DNA of 64,000 nt from Vulcanimicrobiota bacterium (GCA_013290125.1 JABCYQ010000001.1:1-64000); one strand, 5' to 3'; positions 41,385 to 48,945 are shown, counted from the first letter of the stretch. Numbers and translations are program-made. Notes: generated by a model not told the origin, from the sequence alone.

Positions 41385-42149
41385 TCACAGCGGCTCTGCG
41401 TAATGGACGCGTTCGAGGTAGAGCGCGTGGGCCGGCGCCGTGAAGCCCGCATCCGATCGCGTCGCCGGCACGAGCAGACGCGCGATATCGCCCGCCTCTC
41501 GTCTGCCGCGTCCGATCTCGACCAACGTCCCAACGATGATGCGCACCATATGATGAAGGAACGAGTCGGCGGTCAGCCAGATATCGATCATGTCGCCGTC
41601 GCGTTCGACGGCGAGCGACGTCATGGTACGCCGCGTGACGACACCGGCCGGCACGCTCGCGCAGAAAGCGGCGAAATCGTGTTCGCCCACGAGCATCGCC
41701 GCACCGGCCTTCATCGCTTCCACGTCGAGCCGCGCCCCGACATGAAAGACTCGGCCGCGCTCGAGCGGTGACGGCGCAAGCCGATTCAAGATCCGATATC
41801 GATACGTACGCGCGAGCGCGCTCCGCCGCGCCGAGAAATCCGCATCGCGTTCGACGGCCCGCAGCACGGCGATGTGCGACTCGCGCAACATCCCGCTCAA
41901 CGCGACCGGCATGCGCCGCAGATCGATCAGCGCGGCCGTCCTGAAAGAGACGACCTGTCCGCGCGCGTGAACGCCGGCATCGGTCCGGCCGGCGACGACC
42001 ACCTGAATGTCCTGGCCGAGCAGCGTGCTCAATGCGAGGTCGAGCGCACCCGCTACGGTCGGCAATCCGGATTGGCGCTGCATGCCGTGCGTAAACGCGC
42101 CGTCGTACTCGACCACGAGGGCAAAGGTGCGTGAGCCGGCCTGCGTCAC
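41385..42149 (-). CDS. truA: tRNA pseudouridine(38-40) synthase TruA
   Basis: 254 residues. Contains the catalytic Asp in AGRTDAGVHARGQV, YRYRILNRLAPSPLERGRVFH and FLHHMVRIIVGTL, all TruA signatures. It modifies uridines 38-40 of the tRNA anticodon arm. The GTG start overlaps the lysS stop as GTGA. The N-terminal motif reads VEYDGAFTHGMQRQ where most TruA have YDGxxFxGWQ: the Trp is a Met here. Confidence 0.95.
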   Translation of the reverse strand: MTQAGSRTFALVVEYDGAFTHGMQRQSGLPTVAGALDLALSTLLGQDIQVVVAGRTDAGVHARGQVVSFRTAALIDLRRMPVALSGMLRESHIAVLRAVERDADFSARRSALARTYRYRILNRLAPSPLERGRVFHVGARLDVEAMKAGAAMLVGEHDFAAFCASVPAGVVTRRTMTSLAVERDGDMIDIWLTADSFLHHMVRIIVGTLVEIGRGRREAGDIARLLVPATRSDAGFTAPAHALYLERVHYAEPL

Positions 42150-43642
42150 TCGGGTCGTTGAAGCGGGAACAACAAGACGTCGCGGATCGACGTCTGACCG
42201 GTCAAGAGCATGACGAGCCGGTCGATGCCGTACCCGATGCCGCCGGTGGGCGGCAGACCGTATTCGAGCGCATGGACGTAATCCCAGTCGGGTTCCGGCG
42301 CCTCCGCGTCGCCGGCCGCGCGATCGGCGACTTGCGACTCAAAGCGCCGGCGCTGGTCGTCGGGGTCGTTCAATTCCGAAAATGCGTTGGCCACTTCCAT
42401 GTGCGCGATGAAGAGTTCGAATCGCTCGACCAGTTCCGGGTCGTCTTTCTTTCGCTTCGCGAGCGGCGAGAGCACGACTGGTTGATCCAAAACGAAGGTC
42501 GGATCGTTGAGGTGCGGCTCTACGACCTTTTCGAAGACCTTGTCGATAATGTGCGCGTGGCTGTCTTTTTCGCTAACCTCGAGTGAAAGCTTGCGCGCGA
42601 GGGCCCGCGCCCGGTCGACCTCGAGGATGTCATCGCTGCCGATGTTCCCATAACGCTGGAGCGCATCGAGGTAGGCGATGCGCCCGAACGGCCTGCGCAG
42701 TTGGATCTTGCCGTCCGCGAATTCGTGCTCACCGCGGATGCCCGCGGCTTCGGCCATATGAAGAATGAGATCTTCTGTGAGTTTGAGCATGCCTTCGACG
42801 TCGGTGTACGCTTCGTACAATTCGAGCATCGTGAACTCCGGATTGTGCGTCCGATCGATGCCCTCGTTGCGAAACGTTCGCCCGACTTCGTAGACTTTTT
42901 CCATGCCGCCCACGATGCAGCGCTTCAAGTTGAGTTCGGTGGCGATACGCAACTGCAGCGGCAAACCGAGTGCGTTTGAATGCGTCAGAAATGGCCTGGC
43001 GTTAGCGCCTCCGGCCACGGTGAGCAGCGTGGGCGTCTCGACTTCGAAGTAACCGCGCTCGTCGAGAAAGCGCCGCGCCGCAGCGATGATGCGGCTGCGC
43101 AGCAGCATCGTGTCGAGGACTGGGCGGTTGACGATCATATCCACGTAGCGCCGCCGGTAGCGCGCCTCGGGATCCGTGAGCCCATGGAATTTTTCGGGGA
43201 GCGGCCGCAGTGCTTTGGAGAGCACGATGAGCTCGCGCGCGCCGACGGTCAACTCGCCGGTCTTGGTCCGGAACGGCTCGCCGACGATGCCGACGATGTC
43301 GCCGCGGTCGAGATCGTCGACGAGTTCGAACGCTTCACCGAGATCCGCTTGGCTGAAAAAGGCTTGGATGCGGCCCGAGATGTCGTCGAAATCCGCGAAC
43401 GCGACTTTCTTGCCCATGCGCCGCAAGCTACCCAGGCGGCCCGCGATGCGCACGCTCGCGCCGGAGTGCGCGGCGACTTCTAGCGAGTCGTACTGCTCGC
43501 GCACTGCAGCAGCCGTATGCGAGCGTTCGTACTTCGTGTGCGCGAACGGATCGTGACCGGATGCCCTGAGCCGTTCGAGTTTTGCGCGACGAGCCGCGAT
43601 AAGGTCGGCTTCGGTCGCGCCGACCTCGGGCTCTCGACTCAC
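42146..43642 (-). CDS. lysS: Lysyl-tRNA synthetase, class II
   Basis: 498 residues. N-terminal OB-fold anticodon domain (ASVRIAGRLGSLRRMGKKVAF) and class II catalytic core: motif 1 near MIVNRPVLDTMLLRSRIIAAAR, motif 2 FRNEGIDRTHNPEFTMLE, motif 3 GIGYGIDRLVMLLTG. Charges tRNA-Lys with lysine. Overlaps greA upstream by 4 bases and truA downstream by 4. Confidence 0.98.
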   Translation of the reverse strand: MSREPEVGATEADLIAARRAKLERLRASGHDPFAHTKYERSHTAAAVREQYDSLEVAAHSGASVRIAGRLGSLRRMGKKVAFADFDDISGRIQAFFSQADLGEAFELVDDLDRGDIVGIVGEPFRTKTGELTVGARELIVLSKALRPLPEKFHGLTDPEARYRRRYVDMIVNRPVLDTMLLRSRIIAAARRFLDERGYFEVETPTLLTVAGGANARPFLTHSNALGLPLQLRIATELNLKRCIVGGMEKVYEVGRTFRNEGIDRTHNPEFTMLELYEAYTDVEGMLKLTEDLILHMAEAAGIRGEHEFADGKIQLRRPFGRIAYLDALQRYGNIGSDDILEVDRARALARKLSLEVSEKDSHAHIIDKVFEKVVEPHLNDPTFVLDQPVVLSPLAKRKKDDPELVERFELFIAHMEVANAFSELNDPDDQRRRFESQVADRAAGDAEAPEPDWDYVHALEYGLPPTGGIGYGIDRLVMLLTGQTSIRDVLLFPLQRPE

Positions 43643-44148
43643 GTAGCCTTCGCTTTAGCGCCGGTCTTGCGGTTGCCGCGGATCGAGATAATCTTCAGCT
43701 GGATCTCGCCGCTGGGCGTGGTGGCGCTCACCGTCTGACCCGGTTTCGCGCCGATGAGCGCTTGGCCGATCGGCGACTCGTTTGAGATCTTCGCGTTGAG
43801 GGGATCGCTCTCGGTGGATCCGACGATCGTGTAGTCGAGGTCCAGACCACTCGTCATGTTCTTGATCTTGACCGTGCTGCCCAGATGGACTTCGTCGCCA
43901 AGGCCTTCGGTCTCTTGGATGATGCGGGCGTTGCGGATCATGGTCTCGAGTTTGAGGATGCGCCCTTCGACGAACGCCTGCTCTTGCTTGGCGTCTTCGT
44001 ACTCCGCGTTTTCGGAGATGTCGCCGAACTCTTTGGCCTGGCGGATGCGGTCGTTGACTTCCTTGCGGTGGACGGTCTTCAGGTCATCGAGCTCGGCCTC
44101 GAGCTTGCGCAGACCTTCTTCGGTGAGCAGGGTCTCTTTCTCGTTCAT
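43639..44148 (-). CDS. greA: Transcription elongation factor GreA
   Basis: 169 residues: an N-terminal coiled coil with the acidic tip (GDISENAEYEDAKQEQAFVE) and a C-terminal FKBP-like domain (SPIGQALIGAKPGQTVSATTPSG). It rescues backtracked RNA polymerase by stimulating transcript cleavage. GGAGAG lies 5 bases before the ATG. First gene of greA-lysS-truA. Confidence 0.97.
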   Translation of the reverse strand: MNEKETLLTEEGLRKLEAELDDLKTVHRKEVNDRIRQAKEFGDISENAEYEDAKQEQAFVEGRILKLETMIRNARIIQETEGLGDEVHLGSTVKIKNMTSGLDLDYTIVGSTESDPLNAKISNESPIGQALIGAKPGQTVSATTPSGEIQLKIISIRGNRKTGAKAKAT

Positions 44149-44352: not shown

Positions 44353-44910
44353 ATGCACATGACTCGAAGCATCGTGTTCGTTCTCATTGCGATTTTGGTC
44401 GTCGCCGGTTCAAGCGCGTCGTTGGCGGCGTGCGTATCAGGAACGCCAGCGACTTACAATGATATTAGCGCGATCATGTTTGAACGCCGAGGCTGCGGCG
44501 AAATGCGTCCGCCCGAACTCGGCCAGAATCCCTCGATAGATTGTTCGCACTACTGGGTCTTTTTTGGAAACGATGAACCTGGCGGGACTTACAGCCAATC
44601 CAGCAAGCGCGTCGATTTCGGGACCTACCACATCGACGCGACGATTTCGCAAGCGATAGATGTTCTTCGCAAGGACGATTTCTATCTTCTCGGCCCTGGC
44701 GATGCTTATATCACCGATATCAGGGAAACGGTGCTGACCGTCCGCCACTGCGGCGTCGTAACTCGTGTCATGATGTACTCAAACGGCAAAGACGCCAAAA
44801 CGCTGGAACTATTCTACGACCTCGAAAAGCTAGTGACGGATGCGAAGAAGAAGCAAACGCTCGACCTACCGTCAGATTTTCCGTACCGATCTCTATTTGA
44901 CGGTAATTGA
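44353..44910 (+). CDS. Secreted protein of unknown function
   Basis: 185 residues with a signal peptide (IVFVLIAILVVAGSSASLAAC); the cysteine after LAA could be a lipobox. The remainder has six further residues of Cys/Trp/aromatic type around ERRGCGEM, DCSHYWVFFGN and TVRHCGVV, and no recognised domain. A second ATG at 44359 is an equal start. Base composition is less GC-rich than its neighbours. It stands alone, divergent from greA and converging, with only 9 bases between, on the next operon. Confidence 0.65.
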   Translation: MHMTRSIVFVLIAILVVAGSSASLAACVSGTPATYNDISAIMFERRGCGEMRPPELGQNPSIDCSHYWVFFGNDEPGGTYSQSSKRVDFGTYHIDATISQAIDVLRKDDFYLLGPGDAYITDIRETVLTVRHCGVVTRVMMYSNGKDAKTLELFYDLEKLVTDAKKKQTLDLPSDFPYRSLFDGN

Positions 44911-44919
44911 CAAACGAAA

Positions 44920-45846
44920 CTAGCTGCGCGTTGCCTTGACGGCGTCGAGGTGTTCGATGCGCGGTTTGAAATTCAGCCGCCGCAGCACGTCCATGTAGTC
45001 TTCTGCGCTGACTTCCTTCCACGGCTTGCCGAGTAGCGCGAGCAGCGCCGCTTCCATGACATTCGTGCCGAACGAGCGGCCGCCGAGCGACGGCGTGCTC
45101 GTGACGAGCGTGCGCACGCCGCGCACGCGCAGCTCCTCGACATTAGCCGGCGTGATCGTGTTGGTGAGCACGATCTTACCAGCGAGATCGTCCGGCATGA
45201 ATTGACGGATGAAATGGAAATCGCCCGCGATCACTTTCGCCTGTTCGAAATACTGCGGGAACTTCGGCGTCGGCGGACGCTCCTGTTTTTTCCCGGTCGG
45301 ATAGAAGAACTGAAACGGCAGCTTGCACGCGTCGGGGAGATATTTCTCTGCCAGCGCTTCGAATTCGGCAAGCGACGTGACCGGCTTGTCCAGGCCAAGC
45401 GCGAAGATGAAATCGCCGAACGTCACGCGCGCGCCCGCGTCGCAGAGCGCTTGCGCCATGCCGAAGCGATCGAGCGCGCTGACCATCAGCACCGGCGTGC
45501 CGAGGAAGTCCACTATGCCGTGCTCTTGCAGATAGCGAACCGTCTCGCGCTCGAGCGTGTTCTTGAGGCCGCTGCCATCCGCCACTGGCGTCTTCTTCAC
45601 GGCGTCGAGCATGCGCAAACCGTCGCGCAGCGCATAGCGCTTTGCTCCGGCGAACAGGTAGACGTCGATTCCACCGAGTCCGATCGCATCGACCTTGCCG
45701 TCAAGCTCATGCAGCGCGGCGATCGCACGCTCAAGTGAACCGTCGAAGCCCTCGCGCCGGATATCGAAACGCTCGCCGAGCCACTCGACATCAACCCGGT
45801 GATCGCGCGTCGACGATCCCAGGCTCACCGAGACCACCTGCTTCAT
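44920..45846 (-). CDS. Conserved protein often labelled quinate 5-dehydrogenase; partner of the acyl-ACP-reductase-like gene
   Basis: 308 residues. I recognise it only as a family usually found next to shikimate-dehydrogenase-like genes and carrying that label without a visible dinucleotide-binding GxGxxG. Notable stretches are VDAIGLGGIDVYLFAG, FLGTPVLMVSALDRFGMA and ILTNTITPANVEELRVRG-like text. Soluble, no signal. The ATG overlaps the upstream reductase stop as ATGA, so the two products are probably made together and may form a complex. The annotated enzymatic activity should be treated as unproven. Confidence 0.7.
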   Translation of the reverse strand: MKQVVSVSLGSSTRDHRVDVEWLGERFDIRREGFDGSLERAIAALHELDGKVDAIGLGGIDVYLFAGAKRYALRDGLRMLDAVKKTPVADGSGLKNTLERETVRYLQEHGIVDFLGTPVLMVSALDRFGMAQALCDAGARVTFGDFIFALGLDKPVTSLAEFEALAEKYLPDACKLPFQFFYPTGKKQERPPTPKFPQYFEQAKVIAGDFHFIRQFMPDDLAGKIVLTNTITPANVEELRVRGVRTLVTSTPSLGGRSFGTNVMEAALLALLGKPWKEVSAEDYMDVLRRLNFKPRIEHLDAVKATRS

Positions 45847-46994
45847 TGGGCTGCTGTTTCGGCCGCCGGCGGGGGCGCCACGCGCGCATGACCGTTGGAC
45901 ATGCCGGTGCTCTTCGCCGCGCGCGCAAGCTCGCGGGTGGCATCGATCTTCGCTTGCGTCACGGGCTTATCGAACGCGCGCATGCCAGCAAGTTCGAAGC
46001 CGTGCTTGTCGGCGAGTCGTTGGATCTCCAAGACCTTCGCGATATTGATGCCGCGACCGAGCGAGTAGTTCTCGATGCGGTTTTCTAGAGCGAGGATCAT
46101 CGTCTCCGACATGCACGCGAGCGCGACCGCATCGGGAAGTCCGAAGTCGAAGTTGAAGTTCGGATCGCCGGGAACGCGGATGTTGCCGCCCTCGGTGACA
46201 AGAACATCGGGCCGCTCCGTCGCCACGCGCCTTGAAACATCGTGCGGCAGCGAGACTTCGCAGACGACCGCGCCGGGGCGCAGATCTTCCGGTTCTACGA
46301 TGGTTGACGTCGCCGCGGTGGCCGTCAGCACGATGTCGGCACTGCGCACGGCGGCCGTCACGTCGATCGTGCAGTCCAGCACGGCGCTGACGTGCGGCTG
46401 CATCGCGTTGCGCAGATTCTTCAAACGCGTCGCGTTGCGCGCCACAAGCGTGAGGCGAGCGACTTTGTTGCCGATGATCTGCGCGCACGCCGATCCGATG
46501 GAGCCGGTCGCACCGATCACGGCGGCGTGGGCGTTTTCGAGATCGATGTCCATCTCGCGCGCGCCGCGAAGTAGACTTTGGATCGCCGACGCGATCGTGT
46601 ACGAGTTGCCGGTCGTCACCGCGATGGGGCAATTCTCCGCCACGGTGACGCCGCCGTCACCGACCACCGCTGTGAAGCCGCCGAGACCGACGATGTCGCA
46701 GCCGAGTTGCGCCGCCAACTTCGCTCCAGCGACGACACGCGCCATCGCCGCTTCGCGCGGCAACTCGAGCCATTGTTCCGGCAAAAGCGGCGTGCCGATG
46801 AAAAAGCCTTCGATCTCCTCGCCCGTCAGACTGCGGACGCCGGTGATGTGCGAGACCTTGTAGGCCGGCATCCACTCAAGGATCTTCTTGATGAGCGGCA
46901 TGCCTTTGCCGACGGCCTTCGGCTCGTAGCGAAGGACGTCGTCATAGGAGAGCGGATGAATGAGAAAACCGAACTTGCGCAATGGGCGTGTCAC
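45843..46994 (-). CDS. Homologue of cyanobacterial long-chain acyl-ACP reductase (AAR-like, Rossmann fold)
   Basis: 383 residues. Its features line up with cyanobacterial AAR in order: GFLIHPLSYDDV (N-terminus), SLTGEEIEGFFIG, GCDIVGLGGFTAVV, TTGNSYT, the NADPH loop GATGSIGS at about 160-167, and SLGRGINIAKVLEIQRLADKHGF at the end. A cysteine at residue 294 in ALACMSETMILALE occupies the position of the AAR nucleophile. AAR reduces acyl-ACP or acyl-CoA to fatty aldehyde; databases often call such proteins shikimate dehydrogenase. No aldehyde-deformylating oxygenase is in the window. The start is a GTG immediately after GAGG, so a TTG four codons later is an alternative. Confidence 0.75.
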   Translation of the reverse strand: MTRPLRKFGFLIHPLSYDDVLRYEPKAVGKGMPLIKKILEWMPAYKVSHITGVRSLTGEEIEGFFIGTPLLPEQWLELPREAAMARVVAGAKLAAQLGCDIVGLGGFTAVVGDGGVTVAENCPIAVTTGNSYTIASAIQSLLRGAREMDIDLENAHAAVIGATGSIGSACAQIIGNKVARLTLVARNATRLKNLRNAMQPHVSAVLDCTIDVTAAVRSADIVLTATAATSTIVEPEDLRPGAVVCEVSLPHDVSRRVATERPDVLVTEGGNIRVPGDPNFNFDFGLPDAVALACMSETMILALENRIENYSLGRGINIAKVLEIQRLADKHGFELAGMRAFDKPVTQAKIDATRELARAAKSTGMSNGHARVAPPPAAETAAQ

Positions 46995-47018
46995 CCTCTA
47001 ACGAGCCTGTCGGGAGAA

Positions 47019-47471
47019 TTACCCAGCCGAACGCCCCGGCCCTTCGCTCTTGGCTTTCAGCGCGCGCAGCATCATGAGCGAATTCTCCTCGACCTTCTTC
47101 TGGAGTATCGGTCCGATGAGCTCGGCCAACGTCGGCACGCCGAAATCGTAGTCCACGCCGAGCACGACGTGGGTCATGCCGTCGCGCTCTTCAAAAGTCC
47201 AGGCGCCTTCGAATCTGTCCAAATCGCCCTCGGTGAGCCGGTAGTCGATGCGCGTGCGCTCGTCGTCGAAGATGTCTTCTTCGGTCCATTCGATCGGCGC
47301 ATCTTCGACCAATGTCTTCCAGCGCGTCACGGTCTTATTGCCGTCGCGGCGCAGGATTTTGACGTACTCGACATCGGGCATGAATTCCGAGTAGCGCTCC
47401 ATGTCTTTCGCTAGCTCGTAGATGACCTTGCGCGGCGCGGCGATGTCGATCTCGGTCTGGACGTAGGGCAT
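47019..47471 (-). CDS. START/SRPBCC-fold protein (polyketide cyclase/aromatase-like)
   Basis: 150 residues, a complete SRPBCC domain: EIDIAAPRKVIYELAKDMERYSEFMPDVEYVKIL and FEGAWTFEERDGMTHVVLGVDYDFG are typical of the Coq10/aromatase-cyclase branch that binds lipids or polyketides in a deep cavity. It lies 24 bases upstream of the AAR-like gene in the same operon and is a candidate lipid-substrate or product carrier. Specific ligand unknown. Confidence 0.85.
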   Translation of the reverse strand: MPYVQTEIDIAAPRKVIYELAKDMERYSEFMPDVEYVKILRRDGNKTVTRWKTLVEDAPIEWTEEDIFDDERTRIDYRLTEGDLDRFEGAWTFEERDGMTHVVLGVDYDFGVPTLAELIGPILQKKVEENSLMMLRALKAKSEGPGRSAG

Positions 47472-47581
47472 CGCGCGCAGTCACTTCGCCTTTCGTTCCA
47501 GCGGAGCACGGCGCTCCCCCGGCACAAGAAACAAGGCGGCCGAGGTAAACTCGACCGGTATGGCCATCCGAACGGAACCCG

Positions 47582-48856
47582 CTAGCTAGCCAGTTTTCCG
47601 AGTTTTTCCTTAGCCAGCGCCGTTCCCTGTGCGAAGATCGCCATCCCCTCGTCGATCTCCGCTCGCGACACGATCAGCGGCGGTTCGAGCCGGATGACGC
47701 GCTGCTGGTTCAGCGTGTATGCCGCCGTCATGCCGAGTCGCAGACATTCGGGGATGATCACACCGGCGTAGCCTTCGCTCACCAACTCCACGCCCACGAC
47801 GAGCCCGCGGCCGCGCACGTCCGCGATCACGTCGGGCATCCGAGCGCGCAATTCCATCGCCTTTGCTAGCAAGTACTCGCCCATCTCGCGCGACCGTTCG
47901 ACCAATCGCTCGTCGCGCAATACGCGCAATGCCGCAAGGCCGGCTGTGCAGGCAAGCGGATTGCCGCCGAACGTGGACGTATGCATGAGCGGCGATTTAC
48001 CGAATGCATTCATCCAGACGTCGCGCCGCGAAATCGTCGCGCCGATCGGCACGACACCGCCGGACAACCCCTTTGCGATCGTCATGATGTCGGGCACGAC
48101 GCCCTCGTGATCGACGCCCCAGAGATAGCCGGTGCGTCCTAAACCTGTCTGCACTTCGTCTGCGATGAAGAGCGCGCCGTGCTTGTCGCACAGATCGCGC
48201 ACGCCGCGCAGATAGCGGTCGGGCGGGATCATCACGCCGCCTTCGCATTGGATCGGCTCGACGATAAATGCGGCGGCGCCGGGCAGCGCGCGATCCAGCG
48301 CGGCGAGATCTCCGTACTGCACGTGCTCGAATTCCGGCACGAGCGGTTGGAACGAATCCTTGAAGACGTCGCGACCGGTCGCCGTGAGGCTCCCCATCGT
48401 TTTGCCGTGGTACGCGTTCTGCGTCGAGACGATGTGCACGCGCTTTGTGGACAAGCGCGCCATCTTCAGCGCGGCTTCCACCGCTTCGGTGCCGCTGTTC
48501 GAGAAAAAACTGATCTCGAGATCGCCGGGCGCGACGGCGGCGAGTTCGCGCGCAAGCGATGCCATCTGCTCGTTGAAGAACACGCGCGTGGAAAGCGACA
48601 TGCGGTCGAGTTGCGCTTTGACCGCTGCGACAACGACCGGATGGCTGTGCCCGAGGGTGAATACGCCGTACCCGCCACAAAAATCCAAGTACGAGCGGCC
48701 GTCTGTATCCCAAACGCGGCAACCCAAGGCGCGCTTTTCGACGGGCGCTCCGGCGATCTTCATGAAGCGCGCGAGCGGCGGATTGATGTGCTCTTTGTAG
48801 TCCGCGTAGACGCGGTCGAAGAGCGAGGGTTGTTCGTGATCGGTGGGTTCGGCCAT
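47582..48856 (-). CDS. Class-III PLP aminotransferase (acetylornithine/putrescine aminotransferase type)
   Basis: 424 residues. Fold-type I class III signatures: FFSNSGTEAVEAALKMAR, the region ADEVQTGLGRTGYLWG, and the PLP-binding lysine in MTIAKGLSGGVVPIG at about residue 261; then TFGGNPLACTAGLAAL. These enzymes move an amino group between an amine or omega-amino acid and a keto acid or aldehyde. It begins the four-gene operon with the START protein, AAR-like reductase and partner, so the amine/aldehyde partner is probably not ornithine (inference). ATG 48856 chosen over a GTG 7 codons upstream. Confidence 0.9.
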   Translation of the reverse strand: MAEPTDHEQPSLFDRVYADYKEHINPPLARFMKIAGAPVEKRALGCRVWDTDGRSYLDFCGGYGVFTLGHSHPVVVAAVKAQLDRMSLSTRVFFNEQMASLARELAAVAPGDLEISFFSNSGTEAVEAALKMARLSTKRVHIVSTQNAYHGKTMGSLTATGRDVFKDSFQPLVPEFEHVQYGDLAALDRALPGAAAFIVEPIQCEGGVMIPPDRYLRGVRDLCDKHGALFIADEVQTGLGRTGYLWGVDHEGVVPDIMTIAKGLSGGVVPIGATISRRDVWMNAFGKSPLMHTSTFGGNPLACTAGLAALRVLRDERLVERSREMGEYLLAKAMELRARMPDVIADVRGRGLVVGVELVSEGYAGVIIPECLRLGMTAAYTLNQQRVIRLEPPLIVSRAEIDEGMAIFAQGTALAKEKLGKLAS

Positions 48857-48945
48857 ACGGATTCTTTCCGTGCGCACTTCGTCGTTGACCTCTTACGTTA
48901 TGGCGGAAAGGGCCGTTCGCACGCCGCGCGAACTGCGCACACGCC

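Follow-up and report, generated by a model that had tools for sequence, protein, structure and literature searches.

An acyl-ACP-reductase-like protein and a class III aminotransferase in a conserved four-gene operon: a possible aldehyde-to-amine lipid pathway

Results

The window, by which we mean the whole stretch of 64,000 nucleotides analysed here, carries a compact group of four genes on its minus strand (Table 1). They encode an aminotransferase (AT), a START-fold protein, a reductase resembling acyl-ACP reductase (AAR) and a protein of an unnamed family that we call the partner. Our ORF calls give intergenic distances of 110 (AT/START), 24 (START/reductase) and -4 (reductase/partner), the same packing as reported in the earlier note, which took an alternative ATG of the AT ORF, at 48856, as the end. 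The flanking lysS-greA block lies outside the pathway. Between greA and the partner gene (window 44353-44910) there is a 185-aa ORF on the opposite strand with a signal-like N-terminus, for which no Pfam or NCBIfam match was found.

Table 1. Genes of the operon and the adjoining block, in window coordinates
Feature	Position	Strand	Properties
AT, class III PLP aminotransferase of the putrescine-AT/PigE/TamH type	47582..48877	-	431 aa, GTG start
START/SRPBCC-fold protein	47019..47471	-	150 aa; PF03364, PF10604
AAR-type reductase, predicted to act on acyl thioesters	45843..46994	-	383 aa; NAD(P)H site GATGSIG (161-167), Cys294, Glu297
Partner protein, unnamed family	44920..45846	-	308 aa; often annotated 'quinate 5-dehydrogenase'; 4-base overlap with the reductase
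Flanking lysS-greA block	42146..44148	-	ORFs 43639-44148 and 42146-43642

The reductase is of the AAR type and is not a shikimate dehydrogenase. Its sequence matches in the PDB are PigE (4ppm, E 1e-37) and cyanobacterial AAR (6jzq, E 2e-22); with a 16-member profile the values become 1e-48 and 2e-31. The best NCBIfam match is the reductase half of the PigE model (NF053554, 216 bits), and matches to HemA are weak. Against TIGR04058, the equivalog model of cyanobacterial long-chain AAR, the protein scores 116.7 bits, below the curated cut-off of 449.7, which on sequence grounds places it in the AAR superfamily and outside that equivalog. The earlier note had suggested comparing a predicted structure with AAR. 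In the AlphaFold model (pLDDT 84) the top Foldseek matches are all AAR chains (E 9.5e-23, TM 0.72/0.79, rmsd 3.3), and TM is 0.72-0.82 across AAR entries versus 0.30-0.46 for AroE/YdiB entries, whose E values are about 4e-7 or weaker. The protein is thus not placed in the AroE fold.

The note had also pointed to a cysteine at the position of the AAR nucleophile, and the alignment bears this out. Residue 294 is a cysteine (context ALACMSETMIL) that aligns with Cys294 of SeAAR and with the PigE cysteine when the sequence is aligned to 6jzq and 4ppm. The cysteine is invariant in 37 of 37 reductase homologues, drawn from the window's phylum, Bacillota, Deinococcota, Nitrospira, a planctomycete, cyanobacteria and PigE, and so are Glu297, Thr127, Gly129, Gly161 and Gly164. 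The last two belong to the GxxGxxG dinucleotide-binding motif, present as GATGSIG, whose third glycine is found in 28 of the 37. AAR Cys294 has been named the active, acyl-accepting cysteine (PMC9594044), and PigE Cys296 has been given the same role (PMC8341465). By analogy, the reductase is predicted to reduce an acyl thioester to an aldehyde. The homologue in Nitrospira moscoviensis (L197:6868-8619) has some 230 additional residues at its N-terminus, which match no Pfam family.

That the reductase and its partner are shikimate or quinate dehydrogenases, as the usual annotation has it, is very improbable. In favour of the annotation are a Shikimate_DH NAD domain, the only Pfam match of the reductase (E 1e-9), and the label 'quinate 5-dehydrogenase', which is also given to a highly conserved, uncharacterised family of Deinococcus and Thermus (deino9.00587; PMC9425974). 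Judging from label and range, this is likely the same family as the partner. Against the annotation stand the AAR fold, the invariant Cys/Glu motif of AAR, the partner's failure to match any family above cut-off, and a Pfam search for the shikimate-binding N-terminal domain, which found none in the reductase or the partner. The suspicion voiced in the note that the label misleads was well founded.

The AT is a class III aminotransferase (PF00202, Aminotran_3, E 7e-110) with its PLP lysine, K269, in the motif TIAKGLSGG. Its top NCBIfam model is again PigE, with 430 bits over the AT half, followed by putrescine AT. In a maximum likelihood tree, which includes some long branches, it clusters with the ATs of the phylum, of Thermales and of Sulfobacillus, with fused AT-reductases and with putrescine AT; GABA-AT, acetylornithine-type (ArgD-like) and other paralogues from the same genome fall apart from this group (support 93/99). 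The host genome encodes eleven class III ATs, GABA, acetylornithine-family and putrescine types among them, and hence the operon AT is not the sole housekeeping copy. The enzyme is predicted to transaminate an aldehyde, perhaps a long-chain one, to a primary amine.

These data also bear on the idea that the operon serves an amino-acid or cofactor pathway, since an acyl reductase and a class III AT also act together in ArgC-ArgD, LysY-LysJ and HemA-HemL. The structural analogy of GluTR-GSAM to an AAR-like protein plus AT (PMC8341465) and the weak HemA matches would fit. We nevertheless regard such a pathway as quite improbable: the reductase fits AAR and PigE far better than HemA or ArgC, and ArgD- or HemL-type roles for the AT were rejected on the tree and on the paralogues in its own genome.

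The START protein matches the Polyketide_cyc/START domain PF03364 (E 1e-19, 71.5 bits, cut-off 23.4) and PF10604 (E 1e-12), and is predicted to be a carrier of a hydrophobic ligand. Its gene adjoins that of the AT in the window's phylum and also in Sulfobacillus (L253), where the two lie 40 bases apart and the reductase and partner are found elsewhere.

In Pfam and NCBIfam nothing matches the partner above cut-off; a match to acetylglutamate kinase (E 0.008) was dismissed as noise. Mean column identity is 79% within the class. Most members outside the class, in the same or other phyla, share 45-58% identity with it, and the most distant one shares 36%. The AlphaFold model (pLDDT 87) is a two-domain alpha/beta structure, whose matches to periplasmic-binding-protein-like, dehydrogenase, other Rossmann-like and AAR folds all have a TM below 0.5 (0.42-0.48 for AAR). 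By eye, some motifs resemble those of the reductase (GLGGI/GLGGF; N262-E265 and C294-E297), a likeness that we keep as a hypothesis only. Profile comparisons with the reductase did not establish the partner as an AAR paralogue, the matches being non-significant (hhalign E 0.15-0.2, and likewise our own profile alignment). A search of plasmids for the partner found none.

The grouping of the four genes is not due to chance, because the same order recurs across the class and in other classes of the phylum. Of 40 neighbourhoods sampled from the class, 36 have the complete set of four in this order; contig or stretch ends or inserts account for the rest. Other classes of the phylum (20 neighbourhoods) mostly preserve the order AT-START-reductase-partner as well, the exceptions being loci cut by contig ends and one that lacks a START match. 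In 34 of 61 loci the reductase and partner genes have a spacing of exactly -4; spacings between -20 and 60 are found from AT to START in 46 of 55 loci and from START to reductase in 36 of 59. Where inserts occur, those that separate START from reductase measure 0.7-3.8 kb and those that separate reductase from partner 0.5-0.8 kb. The operon has greA and lysS as neighbours at 44-45 of 60 loci. The partner is present in 103 of 117 genomes of the class and in 135 of 149 of the phylum (81 of the 85 of good quality). Hence, the operon belongs to the core genes of the window's phylum, which is new here, and the search for co-occurrence of its families that the note had called for yields a phylum-wide operon.

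Beyond the phylum, a panel of 13 genomes from many phyla has the partner in Thermus composti and Sulfobacillus only. Of 199 Bacillota genomes, 153 have the partner and 137 the reductase: 132 have both, 21 only the partner, 5 only the reductase and 41 neither (Fisher p 2e-21, without correction for kinship). The 21 genomes with a partner but no reductase suggest that the partner possibly serves more than a single purpose. The commonest layout is dusB-HTH-partner-reductase-greA-lysS, which has the greA-lysS edge in common with the window. At several loci (L269-L273, L275, L278) the HTH gene (about 175-220 aa, weak PF01381 match) lies directly upstream of the partner, after dusB. In the neighbourhoods viewed, most partner-reductase loci of Bacillota have no adjoining AT or START gene (an AT elsewhere in the genome was sought in Sulfobacillus only), and the pair may therefore serve another purpose there. 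Partner and reductase were dropped as markers of amine-lipid makers on their own, both being common in Bacillota.

Some Bacillota carry the two enzymes as one protein. Five sampled proteins of 870-930 aa (L281, L282, L284, L285, L287) are AT-reductase fusions with the AT at the N-terminus, the order of TamH, and several have an extra insertion in the Rossmann region of the reductase; a further protein of 853 aa is a true PigE (1349 bits). In three genomes (G371, G454, G461) there is no reductase beside the partner and the reductase is fused to an AT elsewhere. One reductase-AT fusion was found in a planctomycete.

In Deinococcota (111 genomes) the partner is found in 106, the reductase in 108 and both in 105, and the pathway genes are unlinked. 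The sampled reductases occupy the C-terminal part of longer proteins (about 570-640 aa). The two that were annotated (L195:6263-8023, L200:6560-8320) have PlsY, the glycerol-3-phosphate acyltransferase, as their N-terminal part; one Bacillota genome also has this fusion (L286:1720-3525). With a threshold of E <1e-125, an AT orthologue (554-585 bits, one partial at 466) is present in 58 genomes, including Thermus composti, and was not found in the other 53, which genome size suggests are largely Deinococcales. In Thermales the orthologue is distinct, scoring 557-585 bits, with the next paralogue reaching at most 387 bits in the genomes listed in full. The partner gene of Thermus composti (L174:5922-6824) lies beside genes that we named by eye as efp, accB and accC (the latter two encoding the carboxylase of fatty-acid synthesis), and the reductase does not adjoin it.

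Discussion

Our results suggest that the operon is probably a split module for reductive amination of the PigE/TamH type, which would turn an acyl thioester into an aldehyde and then into a primary amine, most likely a long-chain alkylamine for a membrane lipid. We propose this because the reductase and the AT best match the two halves of PigE, and because PigE and TamH fusions make aldehydes and then amines. For PigE, in which the reductase precedes the AT, the conversion from thioester through aldehyde to amine has been shown in cell lysates (PMC8341465); TamH makes a C12 amine from acyl-ACP bound to TamA, with NADH and L-Glu (PMC9594044). The aldehyde-to-amine pathway proposed in the earlier note is plausibly right, given these precedents, the AT-reductase fusions in Bacillota and an AT orthologue common to Thermales and Sulfobacillus.

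The chain length of the substrate, the cofactor, the roles of the START protein and the partner, and the lipid fate of the amine we infer as follows. Cys294 of the reductase would take over an acyl thioester, probably acyl-ACP, which NAD(P)H would reduce to the aldehyde. The class III AT would turn the aldehyde into a primary amine, and the START protein probably serves to keep the hydrophobic compound, be it aldehyde or amine, bound between the enzymes. The partner could be an accessory subunit of the reductase or a second, perhaps the next, enzyme of the route, as its translational coupling to the reductase and their co-occurrence suggest. Once purified, PigE did not carry out the reductase step, and the authors of that study suspected that factors were missing (PMC8341465), which makes an accessory role of the partner worth testing. 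The amine would most likely be a long-chain alkylamine in a membrane lipid, comparable to the N-glyceroyl-alkylamine phospholipids of Thermus.

One could also argue that the acyl thioester is short or specialised, and that the primary amine which the two enzymes make from it serves a soluble metabolite (polyamine-like, a pyrrole or a building block of an antibiotic) and not a membrane lipid. The product of PigE, a C10 amino ketone, goes into a pigment (PMC8341465), and the AT is close to putrescine AT. On balance we consider this explanation unlikely, although it deserves more weight than any other alternative to the lipid. A gene set that is core to a phylum better suits a structural compound, and both the START protein in the operon and the PlsY fusion in Deinococcota speak against a soluble product.

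It has been known since 1985 that Thermus and Deinococcus have alkylamine phospholipids. To our knowledge, there is no analysis of alkylamine lipids in the window's phylum. The phospholipids of Thermus and Meiothermus include N-glyceroyl-alkylamine (PMC3035268). In T. thermophilus HB8 its alkyl chain is iso-C17 and the acyl groups are iso-C15/C17, and Deinococcus radiodurans makes alkylamine lipids too (PMC3398001). A C17 amine could come from a C17 acyl chain, because reduction and transamination would lose no carbon. A search of the open literature found no paper that names biosynthetic genes for the lipid alkylamine of Thermus or Deinococcus.

Our tie between the operon and these lipids is a correlation: Thermales hold the reductase, the AT, the partner and the lipid. 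The fusion of PlsY to the reductase in Deinococcota and one Bacillota genome links the reductase to glycerolipids. D. radiodurans has the lipid and 53 Deinococcota genomes have no AT orthologue at our threshold; therefore either another AT acts there or the link is wrong. A broader reading, which we put forward tentatively and hold to be possible rather than probable, is that AAR-like reductase, AT and partner form a general bacterial route to membrane alkylamine lipids. They would then make the amine of the glyceroyl-alkylamine of Deinococcota, and the window's phylum, and perhaps many Bacillota, would make related amine lipids as yet unseen. The partner would be a new family of enzymes or subunits of the route, possibly a catalytically altered protein of the AAR fold paired with the reductase.

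The chemistry is already known in fused form. New are the split, phylum-wide operon with its START protein and partner family, and the tie to the PlsY fusions of Deinococcota. Also new are the finding that the partner tracks the reductase in Bacillota and Deinococcota, the AT-reductase fusions in some Bacillota and the retention of an AT orthologue in about half of the Deinococcota genomes. Our study provides concrete candidates for alkylamine-lipid genes (AT, PlsY-reductase fusion and partner) in T. thermophilus, which is genetically tractable, and predicts that amine lipids belong to the core traits of a phylum. It also corrects a widespread shikimate/quinate annotation. A family catalogued as highly conserved but uncharacterised in Deinococcus, and likely that of the partner, is thereby placed in the context of a pathway.

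Among known systems, PigE of prodigiosin synthesis is like the window in combining an AAR-like reductase with a conserved cysteine and a class III AT. PigE is a single fused protein in a pigment cluster, whereas in the window the reductase and the AT have genes of their own, which share a phylum-wide core operon with those for the START protein and the partner. As both window proteins score far below the 850-bit cut-off of the PigE equivalog (NF053554), the module, as far as scores can tell, works like PigE and is not a PigE equivalog. TamH of tambjamine YP1 synthesis in Pseudoalteromonas tunicata also joins an AT to an AAR-like reductase, in a route from acyl-ACP through a C12 aldehyde to a C12 amine. 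Unlike the window proteins it is fused, with the AT first, belongs to secondary metabolism and depends on the dedicated ACP of TamA. Cyanobacterial AAR (6jzq; TIGR04058) resembles the window reductase in its fold, GxxGxxG region, Cys294 and E297, at about 26% identity; AAR feeds ADO for the production of alkanes, while the window has an AT instead. Finally, the N-glyceroyl-alkylamine phosphoglycolipids of Thermus, Meiothermus and Deinococcus hold a long-chain primary alkylamine of fatty-acid-like length, and Thermales have homologues of the AT, the reductase and the partner. Deinococcota differ from the window in carrying the reductase as a fusion to PlsY, with the genes unlinked.
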